Below, one piece after another: positions 30,781 through 35,643 of a DNA stretch of 36,958 nucleotides; position 1 is the first letter of the stretch, and each line of letters starts with the position of its first letter. Made by a program: the position numbers and the translations under genes. The stretch spans positions 1 to 36,958 of the forward strand of contig CAMOYA010000012.1 in assembly GCA_946629635.1 (NCBI GenBank). The letters are read 5' to 3'. The notes beneath the pieces are model-generated. The model searched no databases. It saw only the letters and a list, made by a program, of their open reading frames with translations, and was not told the DNA's origin. The DNA is from an uncultured Clostridia bacterium (GTDB lineage Bacteria > Bacillota > Clostridia > Christensenellales > Aristaeellaceae).

Positions 30781-31335
30781 ATGTATTGCGGCAACAATAA
30801 AACGGCGCTCATGTCCCAGGAGCAGATCTCCCAGGCCATGATGCGCCTGATTCGTCAGAAACCCTATGCGCAGATCTCCGTCAGCGAGCTCTGCAAAGCC
30901 GCCGGCATCTCCCGGCAGACTTTTTATTCCCTTTTCACCAGCCGGGAAAACGTGATGATCTTCACCCTGCAGGCGCAGTGCGGCTGTCAGGAGGCGGAAG
31001 AAAAGCGAAGGCCCGTTTCCTCTCCGGGAGAAAGCCTTCGCGAGATGTGCCGCGGCACCAGCGAATACCTGTACCGCAACCGGGATCTGATCCGCATCCT
31101 GGCGGACAATCATATCGATTACCTGCTGTACGACACCTTCCATGAGCTGCTCAGCCAGGCGGACTGCCTCTGGGGCCGGATGGATGAATGCACGCGGAGC
31201 TATGCCTCCAGCTTCTATGCCGGCGGCGTCTCCTGCGTCGCCCGGCAGTATGCCCGGGAAGGATGTGCGGCCAGCCCGCAGCAGCTGGAGGAGCTGCTGA
31301 TCCGCCTGTTTTCAGGGAGCCTGTTTATGGACTGA
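30781..31335 (+). CDS. TetR/AcrR family transcriptional regulator
   Basis: A 184-aa DNA-binding regulator. The N-terminal helix-turn-helix covers residues about 15-60 (AMMRLIRQKPYAQISVSELC; KAAGISRQTFYSLFTSRENV), with the recognition helix SRQTFYSLF typical of TetR proteins. The C-terminal half is helical and Cys-rich (CGCQ, C116-like positions, GGVSCVARQ, EGCAAS) and would bind an unknown inducer and form the dimer. GGGAGGAA precedes the ATG at 30781. It diverges from lon with a palindromic operator in between, so repression of itself and lon is the simplest model. Its last 24 bases overlap the convergent decarboxylase gene. Confidence 0.88.
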   Translation: MYCGNNKTALMSQEQISQAMMRLIRQKPYAQISVSELCKAAGISRQTFYSLFTSRENVMIFTLQAQCGCQEAEEKRRPVSSPGESLREMCRGTSEYLYRNRDLIRILADNHIDYLLYDTFHELLSQADCLWGRMDECTRSYASSFYAGGVSCVARQYAREGCAASPQQLEELLIRLFSGSLFMD

Positions 31336-32691
31336 TGCGACGGAGCGCCCCAAGCCGCGCATCATGACCGCACACTCGGCCACCCCATAGTAGAGAAAGC
31401 TCTGAACCGCCTCCTCCGTGATGCGTTCTCCGGCCATCAGCACCGGCACCGCCGGCGGACAGCTGACGCACGGATCCGCCAGGATCCGCCCCGCCGCGCG
31501 CTCCACGGGCACCATCTCCCAGGGGGAAAGCATCGCTTCGCGGACGGACACCGCCTTCTGCGGAGGCGCCACAAGGCAGGGGGATTCCCATTGCGCGCTG
31601 CCCTCCGGCAGGGAAAGGAGCGCGGCCTCCAGCCGGTTCCATTCCCCGTCCGACGTATACGGAGACGGCATCAGCACCAGATGGTCCCGATCCGCAAATT
31701 CACATTCGATTCCGGCGCTGCGGAGCATCGACTGAAGCTCCCCTCCCGGAATTTTTCTTTTCCGGGCGTCCAGCGTGATTTTCATCGGCTCATCGCCCGC
31801 GATCTGCCAGCCGGCGGCGCACAGCCGGCCCTTCAGCGCATCCGTCCGGGAAACCGCCTCCCGGAGCCGCCCGGGATACCCTCCGGCCAGCTCCTCGTTG
31901 GCCCGGTCCAGCGACTGAAGAATCAGCCAGGAGGGGCTGGTCGAGGCGAACAGGCGCATCGCCTGATCCGCCCGGGACCGCCATTCTTCCGGTGCTGCCT
32001 GCGAAATATGCAGATACGCCGCCCCGGTCAGGCAGGGCAGCGTCTTATGGGCGGAATCGCAGCACAGATCCGCTCCCAGCGAGATGGGATGACGGTCCTC
32101 CGGCAGAAACTTCAGATACGCCCCGTGGGCATTATCCACCAGCAGCGGCACGCCCTGCCTGCGGCATACCGACGCGATCGCCCGGATGTCCTGAAGGTTG
32201 CCCAGATAATCGGGCGAGGTCAGATATACCGCCATATATTCGCCGCGGGCGAGCTTTTTCTCCACCGTTTCCGGCTTCACCCGGCATGCGAGCAGCCCCT
32301 CCTCCGGAGACGGAAAGATCCAGTCCACCTCCAGATCCAGCAGCGCGGCGGCCGTCATAAACGCCTGGTGCGCATTCCGCGCCGCCAGCACCCGCCTGGG
32401 AATCCCCTTCTCCGCCGCGCGCAGGCCCGCCAGATGCAGCATGGCCCGGATGCACAGGGAGGAGCCCTCCGCGGAATAGACCGTCCGCGCCGACCCGAAC
32501 CGTCCGGCCGCGTTCTCCTCGCTCTCCCGGATGATCCCGCGGGCAGAATACAGCGCGTCCGCCCCGGTGATTTCCGTGATATCGGACGCCTCCGGCCCGA
32601 TCAGGGCGACCCCTTTATGGCCGGGCATATGCATCCGGACGGGGTCGGACGCCCGGTACCGGCGGACAAAATCGCAGATGGGCGTATTCAT
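31312..32691 (-). CDS. Orn/Lys/Arg-type PLP decarboxylase
   Basis: Fold-type I PLP enzyme of 459 aa from the arginine/lysine/ornithine decarboxylase family, short (Firmicute) form without the N-terminal wing domain. Motifs: MHMPGHKG near residue 20, VDNAHG with D186 and H189, and SAHKTLPCLTGAAYL with PLP lysine K216. The C-terminal domain contains SPWEMVPVERAAGRI. It likely makes agmatine, cadaverine or putrescine; the substrate cannot be decided from sequence. The ATG at 32691 overlaps the stop of the SCIFF maturase gene by four bases (ATGA), so the two are translationally coupled. It overlaps the convergent tetR gene by 24 bases at its 3' end. Confidence 0.88.
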   Translation of the reverse strand: MNTPICDFVRRYRASDPVRMHMPGHKGVALIGPEASDITEITGADALYSARGIIRESEENAAGRFGSARTVYSAEGSSLCIRAMLHLAGLRAAEKGIPRRVLAARNAHQAFMTAAALLDLEVDWIFPSPEEGLLACRVKPETVEKKLARGEYMAVYLTSPDYLGNLQDIRAIASVCRRQGVPLLVDNAHGAYLKFLPEDRHPISLGADLCCDSAHKTLPCLTGAAYLHISQAAPEEWRSRADQAMRLFASTSPSWLILQSLDRANEELAGGYPGRLREAVSRTDALKGRLCAAGWQIAGDEPMKITLDARKRKIPGGELQSMLRSAGIECEFADRDHLVLMPSPYTSDGEWNRLEAALLSLPEGSAQWESPCLVAPPQKAVSVREAMLSPWEMVPVERAAGRILADPCVSCPPAVPVLMAGERITEEAVQSFLYYGVAECAVMMRGLGRSVASVHKQAP

Positions 32692-34064
32692 GTTTCTTCC
32701 CGGTCCGTCTGCTGTGCCGCCTGCAGCGCAATCGCGCATTCCATCCGCTTGCGGAACAGCTCGCATCCGTATTCATACACCCCGGTGACGCTCCCGGTCG
32801 CATGATAAGCATTGGCCGCGCATCCGCCGGAGCAGTACAGCCGGGCCCAGCACTCGCGGCATTCCTTCCGGGCATAGACATTGCAGGCGGCAAACTCCTG
32901 CTGGACCGGCAGGTTCGTGACACCCTGCCACACGTCTCCCAGCCGGAACTTCTCCTCCCCCACAAACTGATGGCAGGGATACAGATCGCCCCAGGGGGTG
33001 ACCGCCATATATTCCGTTCCGGAGCCGCAGCCGGAAATCCGCTTATAGATGCAGGGGCCGCCGGAGAGATCGAGCATATAGTGATAGAAGGTGAACGGCC
33101 GACCCTCCTTCTGCCGCCTGCGCATCAGCCGGGCCAGCTCCTCATACTGGTTCATCACGACGGGCAGATCCTCCCGCGTCAGCGCGGCCGGATCATCCTC
33201 CGCGCAGACGACCGGCTCCATGCTCAGCTCCGTGAAGCCCAGGTCCAGCATGACCCTGATATCCTCCAGGAAATCCGGATTCGCGTGGGTGAAGGTGCCG
33301 CGCATATAATAGTTCTTTCCGCCGCGCGCCTTCACCAGCTTCTGAAACTTCGGCACAATCCGCTCCCAGCTGCCGTTGCCCGCGTAATCCACCCGGCAGC
33401 GGTCATGAATCTCCTTCCGCCCGTCCAGGCTCAGCACCACATTGCTCATTTCCCGGTTGGCAAAGTCGATCACATCGTCATCGATCAGCATGCCGTTGGT
33501 GGTCAGGGTGAAGCGGAAATGCTTGCCCTTCTCCTTCTCGATCGACCGGGCATAGGCCACCAGCTGTTTGACCACCTCGAAGTTCATCAGGGGTTCGCCG
33601 CCGAAGAAGTCCACCTCCAGATTATGCCGGGAGCCGGAATGCGCCACCAGAAAATCCAGCGCCTGCTTTCCGACCTCAAAGGACATGACGGCACGCTCCC
33701 CGTGATACTTGCCCTGGCTGGCAAAGCAGTAGGCGCAGTTCAGGTTGCAGGTGTGCGCCACGTGCAGGCACAGGGCCTTCACCACGCCGGCAGTCCGCTG
33801 CTTCAGCTCCCCGGCCATCGGCTCAAACGTGTCCGGAGAAAAGAGCTTGCCCTGATCCTTCAGGGCGGTGATCTCGTCATAAAGCGACGACAGCTCCGCC
33901 GGATCCTCCCCGAAGCGCGCGTGCATTTCCGCGATCAGGGCATCCCGGTTTTTTTCCTCATACCCCCCGATCATTTCATACGCGATCTCATCAACCGCGT
34001 GAACGCTGCCGGAGCAGACGTCCACCACAATATACTGATCATCCAGATGAAAACGATGAATCAT
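32688..34064 (-). CDS. scfB: SCIFF peptide radical SAM maturase
   Basis: Radical SAM/SPASM enzyme of 458 aa that forms thioether links in the SCIFF precursor encoded just upstream. Residues 1-90 form the peptide-recognition (RRE-like) region. The SAM cluster motif is CNLNCAYC (C106, C110, C113), followed by FFGGEPLMNF. The C-terminal SPASM/auxiliary-cluster region contains GCGSGTEYMAVTPWGDLYPC, then CNVYARKECRECWARLYC and SGGCAANAY. AAGGAG sits five bases before the ATG. A terminator-like hairpin between precursor and maturase genes should reduce maturase relative to peptide. The pair is one of the best markers of the class Clostridia. Confidence 0.95.
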   Translation of the reverse strand: MIHRFHLDDQYIVVDVCSGSVHAVDEIAYEMIGGYEEKNRDALIAEMHARFGEDPAELSSLYDEITALKDQGKLFSPDTFEPMAGELKQRTAGVVKALCLHVAHTCNLNCAYCFASQGKYHGERAVMSFEVGKQALDFLVAHSGSRHNLEVDFFGGEPLMNFEVVKQLVAYARSIEKEKGKHFRFTLTTNGMLIDDDVIDFANREMSNVVLSLDGRKEIHDRCRVDYAGNGSWERIVPKFQKLVKARGGKNYYMRGTFTHANPDFLEDIRVMLDLGFTELSMEPVVCAEDDPAALTREDLPVVMNQYEELARLMRRRQKEGRPFTFYHYMLDLSGGPCIYKRISGCGSGTEYMAVTPWGDLYPCHQFVGEEKFRLGDVWQGVTNLPVQQEFAACNVYARKECRECWARLYCSGGCAANAYHATGSVTGVYEYGCELFRKRMECAIALQAAQQTDREET

Positions 34065-34078
34065 GCTTTCTCCTTATA

Positions 34079-34102
34079 CAAGAAAAGCCGCCTTACGGCG
34101 GC
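34079..34102 (-). terminator. Attenuator between SCIFF precursor and maturase genes
   Basis: On the minus strand GCCGCC, loop GTAA and GGCGGC are followed by TTTTCTT. The T-rich run leads straight into the maturase ribosome site. Partial termination here would make more precursor mRNA than maturase mRNA. Confidence 0.8.
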
Positions 34103-34118
34103 AGAATGGATGCCCGAA

Positions 34119-34274
34119 TTACTTGTCCGCTTCCTGCTTGTTTTCACACTGCTGATTCGCGATGCCGCAGCTGGTCTTGCAGGCGGACTGGCAGGACGTC
34201 TGGCATTCGCCGCAGCCGCCCTTTTTGGCGCTCTCGCACAGGTCACGGGTATTCAGAGTCTGGATATGCTTCAT
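34119..34274 (-). CDS. scfA: SCIFF family ranthipeptide precursor
   Basis: A 51-aa peptide (six cysteines in forty-five family). It opens MKHIQTLNTRDLCESAKKGG, followed by CGECQTSCQSACKTSC and GIANQQC, then a charged tail. Cysteines are at 13, 21, 24, 28, 32, 36 and 43: seven, one more than the family name. The maturase links Cys side chains to acceptor residues by thioether bonds. In studied SCIFF peptides a link joins C32 to T37; here residue 37 is Gly. GGGAGG lies eight bases before the ATG. The gene has its own consensus promoter and is first in the scfA-scfB-decarboxylase unit. The natural function of SCIFF peptides is not settled. Confidence 0.95.
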   Translation of the reverse strand: MKHIQTLNTRDLCESAKKGGCGECQTSCQSACKTSCGIANQQCENKQEADK

Positions 34275-34307
34275 ATTTCAATACCTCCCGGTTCAAATTT
34301 CCTGAAT

Positions 34308-34336
34308 ATTCTAACACAGCTTCCCCATGAAGTCAA
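34308..34336 (-). promoter_or_regulatory. Sigma-A promoter of the SCIFF operon
   Basis: TTGACT (34331-34336) and TAGAAT (34308-34313) are 17 bases apart on the minus strand, just after the end of the GltD-like gene. Confidence 0.85.
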
Positions 34337-34341
34337 ACAAA

Positions 34342-35643
34342 TCAAAGGATCTGCTCCGCAAAAGCGTCGGAGCCCTTCGTTTCCGCAACGGGCACGTCCG
34401 GATAATCGGTCAGCACCGGCATCGGAAGGGACTGCATATAGGCATGCATGGCCTCCGCCACCCGCTTGCCGTTGGCCACGGCTTCCACCACGGTCCGGGC
34501 GCCGCTGGCGGCGTCTCCCGCAGCAAACACGCCATCCCGGCTGGTGCGCCCGTCCTCGTCCACGGTCAGCAGGCCGCGCCCGGTCGTATCGATCCCCCTG
34601 GTGGTCGTCACCAGGTTGCTTTCCGCCCCCTGGCTGACCGCGATGATCACGCCCGTGCAGGGATACAGCTTTTCCGTGCCCGCCACCGGGCGGATGCGGC
34701 CGTCTCCGTCGACCTGGCTGTCCGCCAGAATCACGCCGTCCTCCCGGATCTCCACGGTGCACTTGTTCATGATGAAATCGACGCCCTCCAGCCGGGCATA
34801 GCTGCTCTCGTACTGGCTGGCCGTCAGCGTATCCGTCAGATTCACGCAGGAAACGAAGCGCGCCCCCTTGCGGATCGCCGTGCGCGCACAGTCCATCGCG
34901 CTGTTGCCGGTGCCGATGACCAGGATCCGCTCGCCCAGATGGAACGCATCCGGACTGGCCAGATAATTGATCGCATAGGTCACATGGCCCAGGCTCTCCC
35001 CGCGGATGTTCAGCTTGTTCGGCTTCCACAGGCCCGCGCCGACGAAGATGCTCTGGTATCCGTCCCGGAACAGATCATCGATGGTGATCGCGCTGCCGAT
35101 ATAGGTATTCGGACGGAACTGGATGCCCTTGAGCTCCAGATGCCGGTACGCCAGGTCATCCAGCACCGAATCCGGCAGGCGGAAGTCCGGGATGCCGTAG
35201 CGCAGCACGCCGCCGATCTTGTCCCGGCTGTCGTAGATCGTGATCTTATAGCCATACCGGGCGAGGATGATCGCAATCGTCAGGCCGGCGGGGCCCGCGC
35301 CGATCACCGCGGCCTTCCGGCCGTTGGGCACGGCGGGACCCTTCACCATCTGATTCGCATAGGTGGAGGAGATATAGTTCTCGATGATGGAAAAATGGAC
35401 CGGAGATTCCTTGATTCCCCGGACGCAGTGCCCCTCGCACTGCTTTTCGTGGTTGCAGACCAGGGAGCACACCGTCGTCAGCGGGTTGTTCTCAAAGAGC
35501 ATCCAGCCCGCTTCGTTCAGCTTCCCGTCCTTCAGCAGGCGGATGACTTCCGGAATATTGGTGTGAATCGGGCAGCCCTCCTGACACCTGGGCTTTTTAC
35601 AGCCCAGGCACCGGCTGGCTTCTTCCATTACGTGAAGTGCCAT
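34342..35643 (-). CDS. GltD-like NAD(P)-dependent iron-sulfur flavoprotein
   Basis: A 433-aa flavoprotein like the small subunit of glutamate synthase and NfnB. The N-terminal domain has two four-cysteine sets, C12/C15/C20/C24 and C59/C63/C69/C73, for two 4Fe-4S clusters. FAD binds at GAGPAG (115-120), with IPDFRLP following. The NAD(P) site is GTGNSA (244-249), and GVFAAGDAASGARTVVEA is the C-terminal FAD motif. It moves electrons between NAD(P)H and a partner. No glutamate synthase large subunit or NfnA is visible, so the partner is unknown. The ATG at 35643 has no clear ribosome site, and an in-frame TGA nine bases upstream blocks extension; it may depend on coupling to upstream translation. 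Confidence 0.88.
   Translation of the reverse strand: MALHVMEEASRCLGCKKPRCQEGCPIHTNIPEVIRLLKDGKLNEAGWMLFENNPLTTVCSLVCNHEKQCEGHCVRGIKESPVHFSIIENYISSTYANQMVKGPAVPNGRKAAVIGAGPAGLTIAIILARYGYKITIYDSRDKIGGVLRYGIPDFRLPDSVLDDLAYRHLELKGIQFRPNTYIGSAITIDDLFRDGYQSIFVGAGLWKPNKLNIRGESLGHVTYAINYLASPDAFHLGERILVIGTGNSAMDCARTAIRKGARFVSCVNLTDTLTASQYESSYARLEGVDFIMNKCTVEIREDGVILADSQVDGDGRIRPVAGTEKLYPCTGVIIAVSQGAESNLVTTTRGIDTTGRGLLTVDEDGRTSRDGVFAAGDAASGARTVVEAVANGKRVAEAMHAYMQSLPMPVLTDYPDVPVAETKGSDAFAEQIL

Follow-up and report, generated by a model that had tools for sequence, protein, structure and literature searches.

A SCIFF locus with glycine at residue 37 in an uncultured Clostridia bacterium and the probable site of its thioether

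The window analysed here, a stretch of 36,958 nucleotides that makes up positions 1 to 36,958 of contig CAMOYA010000012.1 (assembly GCA_946629635.1, an uncultured Clostridia bacterium), encodes a SCIFF precursor peptide with a glycine at residue 37, the position at which a threonine has been mapped in vitro as the thioether acceptor of two members of the family. This raises the question of whether such a peptide can still be cross-linked and, if so, at which residue. The first-pass annotation took Thr37 to be the one settled acceptor, and read Gly37 as the possible mark of an odd product. The answer put forward here is that the locus is quite probably an ordinary SCIFF (ranthipeptide) system, belonging to a widespread Gly37 variant lineage, whose ring would run from Cys32 to Thr34.

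The precursor gene, its maturase and the gap between them

The precursor gene, scfA, occupies 34119..34274 on the reverse strand and encodes 51 amino acids plus a stop codon, the product being, when read from 34274 to 34119 (-), MKHIQTLNTRDLCESAKKGGCGECQTSCQSACKTSCGIANQQCENKQEADK. The peptide scores 81.5 bits (E 2.9e-23) against the SCIFF precursor model TIGR03973, whose cut-off is 50, and 83.3 bits against PF13165 (cut-off 27), and given that both scores exceed the cut-offs, the reading frame did not arise by chance. The family model gives this good score despite the absent Thr37. A false reading frame or a frameshift artefact was ruled out, as the models lie far above their cut-offs and the same core is found in 32/32 peptides of the genus.

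The peptide contains seven cysteines (residues 13, 21, 24, 28, 32, 36 and 43), and the C-terminal six follow the 21-24-28-32-36-43 register of SCIFF precursors. The core segment C32-K33-T34-S35-C36-G37 lies at 34164..34181 (-), with the codon of Thr34, the acceptor mapped for co-expressed CteA, at 34173-34175, and that of Gly37 (GGC) at 34164-34166. Residues 1-21 align without gaps to residues 1-21 of CteA (PDB 5wgg), with C21 on C21, and the residue numbering therefore agrees with that of the literature. The description of a SCIFF precursor with Gly37 and a seventh cysteine, Cys13, was thus sound, and the numbering used in the first-pass annotation proved to be correct.

Upstream of scfA, a ribosome binding site, GGGAGG, was recognised by eye at 34284..34289 (-), and a candidate promoter, proposed on its match to the consensus (TTGACT, 17 bases, and an extended -10, TAGAAT), lies at 34308..34336 (-). 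It is the one site of this type in 33900-34700, where shuffled sequences gave a mean of 0.4. The source genome, which is 87% complete, has one SCIFF gene.

The maturase gene, scfB, is found at 32688..34064 on the same strand, with its start 54 bases downstream of scfA, in the arrangement expected of a precursor and its adjacent maturase; a same-strand maturase also starts within 600 bases downstream in 156/165 of the Gly37 loci. It encodes a radical SAM/SPASM enzyme of 458 amino acids, collinear with CteB, which scores 741.7 bits against its best model, TIGR03974 (cut-off 425), and 271.3 bits against NF047865, under the cut-off of 340. Residues 1-450 align to the CteB of PDB 5wgg (E 3.2e-157), its best structural relative by sequence. 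The enzyme is complete, as had been claimed at first pass, and carries all twelve of the cysteines with a rounded conservation of 1.00 in an alignment of 399 maturases (99, 106, 110, 113, 338, 346, 364, 402, 405, 411, 415 and 434). The maturase is followed by a gene similar to Orn/Lys/Arg decarboxylases (31312-32766, reverse strand), and 67 of 80 GTDB loci include a homologue in the stretch that was fetched.

The gap between the two genes contains a terminator-like hairpin at 34087..34102 (-), GCCGCC-GTAA-GGCGGC followed by TTTTCTT, and the region 34062-34124, folded as RNA, has a z of -1.86. A simple scan of precursor-maturase gaps for GC hairpins trailed by T-rich sequence was positive in 31/31 scored loci of the genus, 125/156 Gly37 loci and 146/230 Thr37 loci, where base shuffles predict 1.1, 5.2 and 5.9, respectively, and it was negative in the sole Ser37 gap. 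The hairpin is probably an attenuator or leaky terminator, which would provide more precursor than enzyme. Such attenuators occur in other RiPP operons.

Distribution and origin of Gly37

Whole-genome searches with TIGR03973 were positive in 32/45 genomes of the genus, 43/60 of the family, 102/118 of the class and 313/398 of the phylum. The family set contains the window itself and one other member of its genus, the class draw counts leave out genome G508, and the phylum set is made up of 180 of the 313 positive genomes, 60 taken as the top-scoring loci in two listings and 120 picked to spread across families, which does not constitute a random draw. A further 80 loci were taken from the GTDB contigs most similar to the window peptide, and these lean towards Gly37 because the search patterns contained the Gly37 stretch; two extra families were also added. 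The peptides were located by a consensus mask, which includes Thr34 and accepts at least 10 of 15 positions, so that very divergent cores could be hidden, and 452/454 loci yielded a SCIFF peptide, the other two being L220 (a 22-bit match in a long frame) and L358 (core partly N). Second copies (L307 of L228, L426 of L268 and L428 of L289) were set aside. Given that some of the 80 GTDB loci duplicate peptides of other genomes, perhaps of the same species, the locus counts are partly non-independent; the distinct 43-mers number 121 with Gly37 and 274 with Thr37.

Gly37 was present in 32/32 peptides of the genus, 25/42 of the family, 22/100 of the class draw and 7/179 of the phylum draw. Over the 452 peptides, a partly biased set, residue 37 is Thr in 286, Gly in 165 and Ser in one, so that all the peptides outside the Gly37 clade have Thr, except for the single Ser. 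Labels on the Gly37 carriers among the GTDB loci include Oscillospiraceae, Lachnospiraceae, Gemmiger, Oscillibacter and Erysipelatoclostridium. The distribution of these counts indicates that Gly37 is normal in this lineage and frequent among Clostridia of the gut and rumen. The check proposed at first pass, of whether Gly37 is fixed in the lineage, thus has a positive outcome, with all 32 genus peptides sharing it and its carriers forming one clade on the maturase tree. Throughout this clade, the core (residues 21-41) is almost letter-for-letter constant.

A number of other variants were observed in the same searches. Leu or Ile takes the place of Cys36 in 7/452 peptides (L157, L165, L177, L183, L200, L218 and L285), all of them with Thr37. 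In two genomes of different families, a single frame of 95 residues (L359:201-449 and L360:201-452) contains two full leader-core SCIFF units in tandem, with 12 and 14 cysteines, respectively, both units being of the Gly37 type. Genome G621 carries SCIFF genes at two distinct places (88.5 and 77.7 bits), the first of which (L431) is Thr37. One family of the same order, whose genomes are small (0.8-1.1 Mb), gave no SCIFF match in any of the four that were sampled (G444, G474, G519 and G539).

The origin of the replacement was addressed on a 76-row IQ-TREE of the maturases, drawn from 363 long sequences (19 chosen, 22 Gly37 and 34 Thr37 at random, and the window) and run under LG+G4 without a mixture, with a bootstrap that was not fully settled (0.984). 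The Gly37 maturases form one side of a branch (96/90), with the sole Ser37 maturase, L289, as their sister (100/99), and the Thr37 rows L111, L236 and L248 next outward (100/100). The Ser37 codon, AGC, is one base from the Thr codon ACC and one from the Gly codon GGC. On a 399-row FastTree, two changes account for the three states of residue 37, which is the minimum possible; an earlier 301-row FastTree required three changes, and the deep forks of its Gly37 clade were unsupported (0 and 49). Three Thr37 rows that appeared to lie inside the Gly37 clade in an early look, at weak forks, and were considered as a joint reversion, are placed outside it by the 76-row tree, which leaves a single switch, with no independent replicate.

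Given this topology, in which the Gly37 rows are one clade, Ser37 is its sister and Thr37 comes next, Gly37 probably arose once, from Thr through Ser to Gly, in an ancestor shared by many Clostridia of the gut, and was then kept. It is a replacement retained in the lineage, and not damage. Thr37 is found in 17/42 peptides of the window's own family, and the five Thr37 maturases of that family in the 76-row tree (L330, L339, L344, L350 and L351) form a separate clade (100/100), which means that the family contains two versions of the SCIFF system. The Ser37 locus, L289, comes from a single draft genome (G107), and its peptide is also the only one of the 452 without the donor Cys32, which is replaced by Ser (AGC). 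Its maturase aligns across residues 1-452 of scfB (633.6 bits), and the search of its family covered three further genomes, all of which have Gly37 together with Cys32.

The additional leader cysteine, Cys13, whose codon lies at 34236..34238 (-), is usual in part of the Gly37 clade, being present in 126/165 Gly37 loci, against 3/286 Thr37 loci, and in 32/32 peptides of the genus. A leader cysteine is likewise seen in the Thr37 peptides of the window's family, 16/17 of which have it at position 11. As the leader is removed in related systems, the product need not contain Cys13. The leader pattern [TS]R/TK was found in 163/163 Gly37 loci and 6/258 Thr37 loci, with one locus counted twice, and a stricter pattern, applied to a thinned set, in 91/93 and 3/206. 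Co-selection of leader and core was ruled out as the cause, given that T[RK] leaders occur in 21/29 Thr37 peptides of a sister family (L429-L457), and the association between leader and Gly37 is therefore one of shared ancestry.

The acceptor of the thioether

In the excerpts available from two reviews (PMC8326336, PMC8172795), the links of Tte1186a and CteA are given as C32-T37 when mapped in vitro, whereas for CteA co-expressed with CteB a C32-T34 link at the gamma carbon is reported, with Hudson et al. 2019 cited; these excerpts leave the difference between the two results unexplained. A third review, in the part available, gives a Cys-Thr gamma link with no position (PMC11002830). The initial puzzle thus followed from the premise that Thr37 is the one acceptor, which is out of date and had already been doubted in the literature. 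Nor does Gly37 give support to the idea of an odd product, as it is shared by a large gut-bacterial clade in which Thr34 is kept. The first-pass suggestion of Thr34 as a possible site of the link is borne out to the extent that this residue is present, and that it is the acceptor these reviews report for co-expressed CteA.

Because residue 37 is Gly, the C32-T34 ring is the one favoured in the scfA peptide, and a clade that lacks Thr37 and keeps its maturase fits Thr34 as the acceptor. On these grounds, it is rather likely that the peptide carries the ordinary gamma-thioether between Cys32 and Thr34, with both the modification and its site being predictions. Among the SCIFF peptides, located with a mask that includes Thr34, this residue is present in 452/452, and Cys32 in 451/452. 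The invariance of Thr34 is unspecific, given that Q29, A31, K33 and S35 are equally invariant (452/452), and Thr34 could have been retained for recognition instead.

The steps of the reaction would be those described for CteA and CteB in the same review excerpts (PMC8326336, PMC8172795). The leader would dock onto the N-terminal recognition domain of the maturase, and the radical SAM cluster would generate a 5'-deoxyadenosyl radical, which would take a hydrogen from the side chain of the acceptor. The sulfur of Cys32, thought to be held at an auxiliary cluster, would then close the thioether, in the scfA peptide on the gamma carbon of Thr34, the site reported for co-expressed CteA.

A different reading would be that C32-T37 is the native link of the Thr37 peptides, and that the Gly37 lineage moved its ring to a new acceptor (Thr34 newly, or Thr26, Ser35 or Asn40), with an adapted active site in the maturase. 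The near-absolute presence of Thr37 outside the Gly37 clade is in its favour, and implies that Thr37 has some role there, perhaps that of the acceptor, so that a C32-T37 link is possible in those peptides. Six columns of the maturase (105, 109, 327, 329, 409 and 437) mostly separate the Gly37 enzymes from the Thr37 enzymes, both near and far, by the kind of residue that they hold, with changes of Asp to Thr at 105, which adjoins the first cysteine of the CX3CX2C motif, Phe to Tyr at 327 and 329, and Phe to Leu at 409. In the Ser37 enzyme (L289), columns 329 and 409 agree with the Gly37 enzymes, and 105 and 327 with the Thr37 enzymes.

This co-change in the active site was rejected as evidence when a control over 108 clades found a Thr37 clade with more such columns, the strict count being 5-6 in the large Gly37 clades and nine in a Thr37 clade of nine rows. 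The crowding of the columns near conserved cysteines also varies with how many of them are counted (p 0.0024 with the top seven, 0.05 with 12 and 0.14 with 20). The changes may thus be read as a weak hint, and are not evidence of a new chemistry. Similarly, Thr26, which sits in a second C-x-T-S-C motif of the scfA peptide (C24-QTS-C28), is present in 100% of the 121 distinct Gly37 peptides, against 57% of the 274 distinct Thr37 peptides, but it is also found in 33/33 peptides of the sister Thr37 family, and therefore predates Gly37. Overall, a displaced ring appears unlikely.

A bolder version would divide SCIFF systems into two chemistries, in which C32-T37 is the ring formed in vivo by the Thr37 systems, and one ancestor of many gut Clostridia lost this acceptor by way of Ser37 and rebuilt its maturase for a different ring, C32-T34 and perhaps, within the twin C-x-T-S-C motif, C24-T26 as well. 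If this were true, the whole clade would make a product of another shape, although the proposal is a speculative one, to which we give little credence.

It is highly improbable that a sactionine link forms between a cysteine and the alpha carbon of Gly37. This link would suit a clade-wide Gly37, the alpha carbon being the sole one that glycine offers, but scfB is the TIGR03974 SCIFF enzyme, and the review excerpts give a gamma-carbon link for CteA (PMC8326336, PMC8172795); no alpha linkage by the SCIFF family since the reassignment was found among the open-licence PMC papers listed by the searches. There is also little reason to suppose that the peptide has no thioether, as a decayed or re-used SCIFF whose cysteines serve in metal binding or disulfides. 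The L289 locus, which lacks both Cys32 and Thr37 and still has its maturase, would fit such a course, but the near invariance of residues 21-41 in the clade, and the retention of all twelve conserved cysteines by scfB, make it very unlikely here.

Relation to known systems

The Gly37 clade, in which the maturases are intact and which has a Ser37 relative, is of wider value, as it represents a natural experiment that could decide between the Thr34 and Thr37 assignments without designed mutants. If a Gly37 pair gives C32-T34, Thr37 is dispensable. The Gly37 peptides, many of which come from gut and rumen bacteria, account for about a third of the peptides in this partly biased set (165/452). The open-licence PMC papers listed by the searches showed no characterised representative of them, and no Gly37 peptide with a mapped product or ring pattern, and the letters of the core matched no paper.

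The closest comparison is with CteA/CteB (thermocellin) of Clostridium thermocellum (PDB 5wgg/5why), which has in common with the window locus the register of residues 1-21, the architecture of the maturase, Cys32 and Thr34. The window peptide differs from CteA in having Gly rather than Thr at 37, the extra leader Cys13 and a TRDL motif in its leader. Tte1186a/Tte1186 of Caldanaerobacter subterraneus is likewise a SCIFF precursor with its maturase and, in the review excerpts (PMC8326336, PMC8172795), has Cys32 as the reported donor, but its mapped acceptor, Thr37, is missing from the window peptide. PapA/PapB (freyrasin) belongs to the ranthipeptide class, of which the window peptide is a predicted member, and has a related maturase model (NF047865). 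Its precursor, PapA, carries six Cys-Asp beta links according to review excerpts, whereas the window peptide, inspected by eye, is without the C-x3-D motif.
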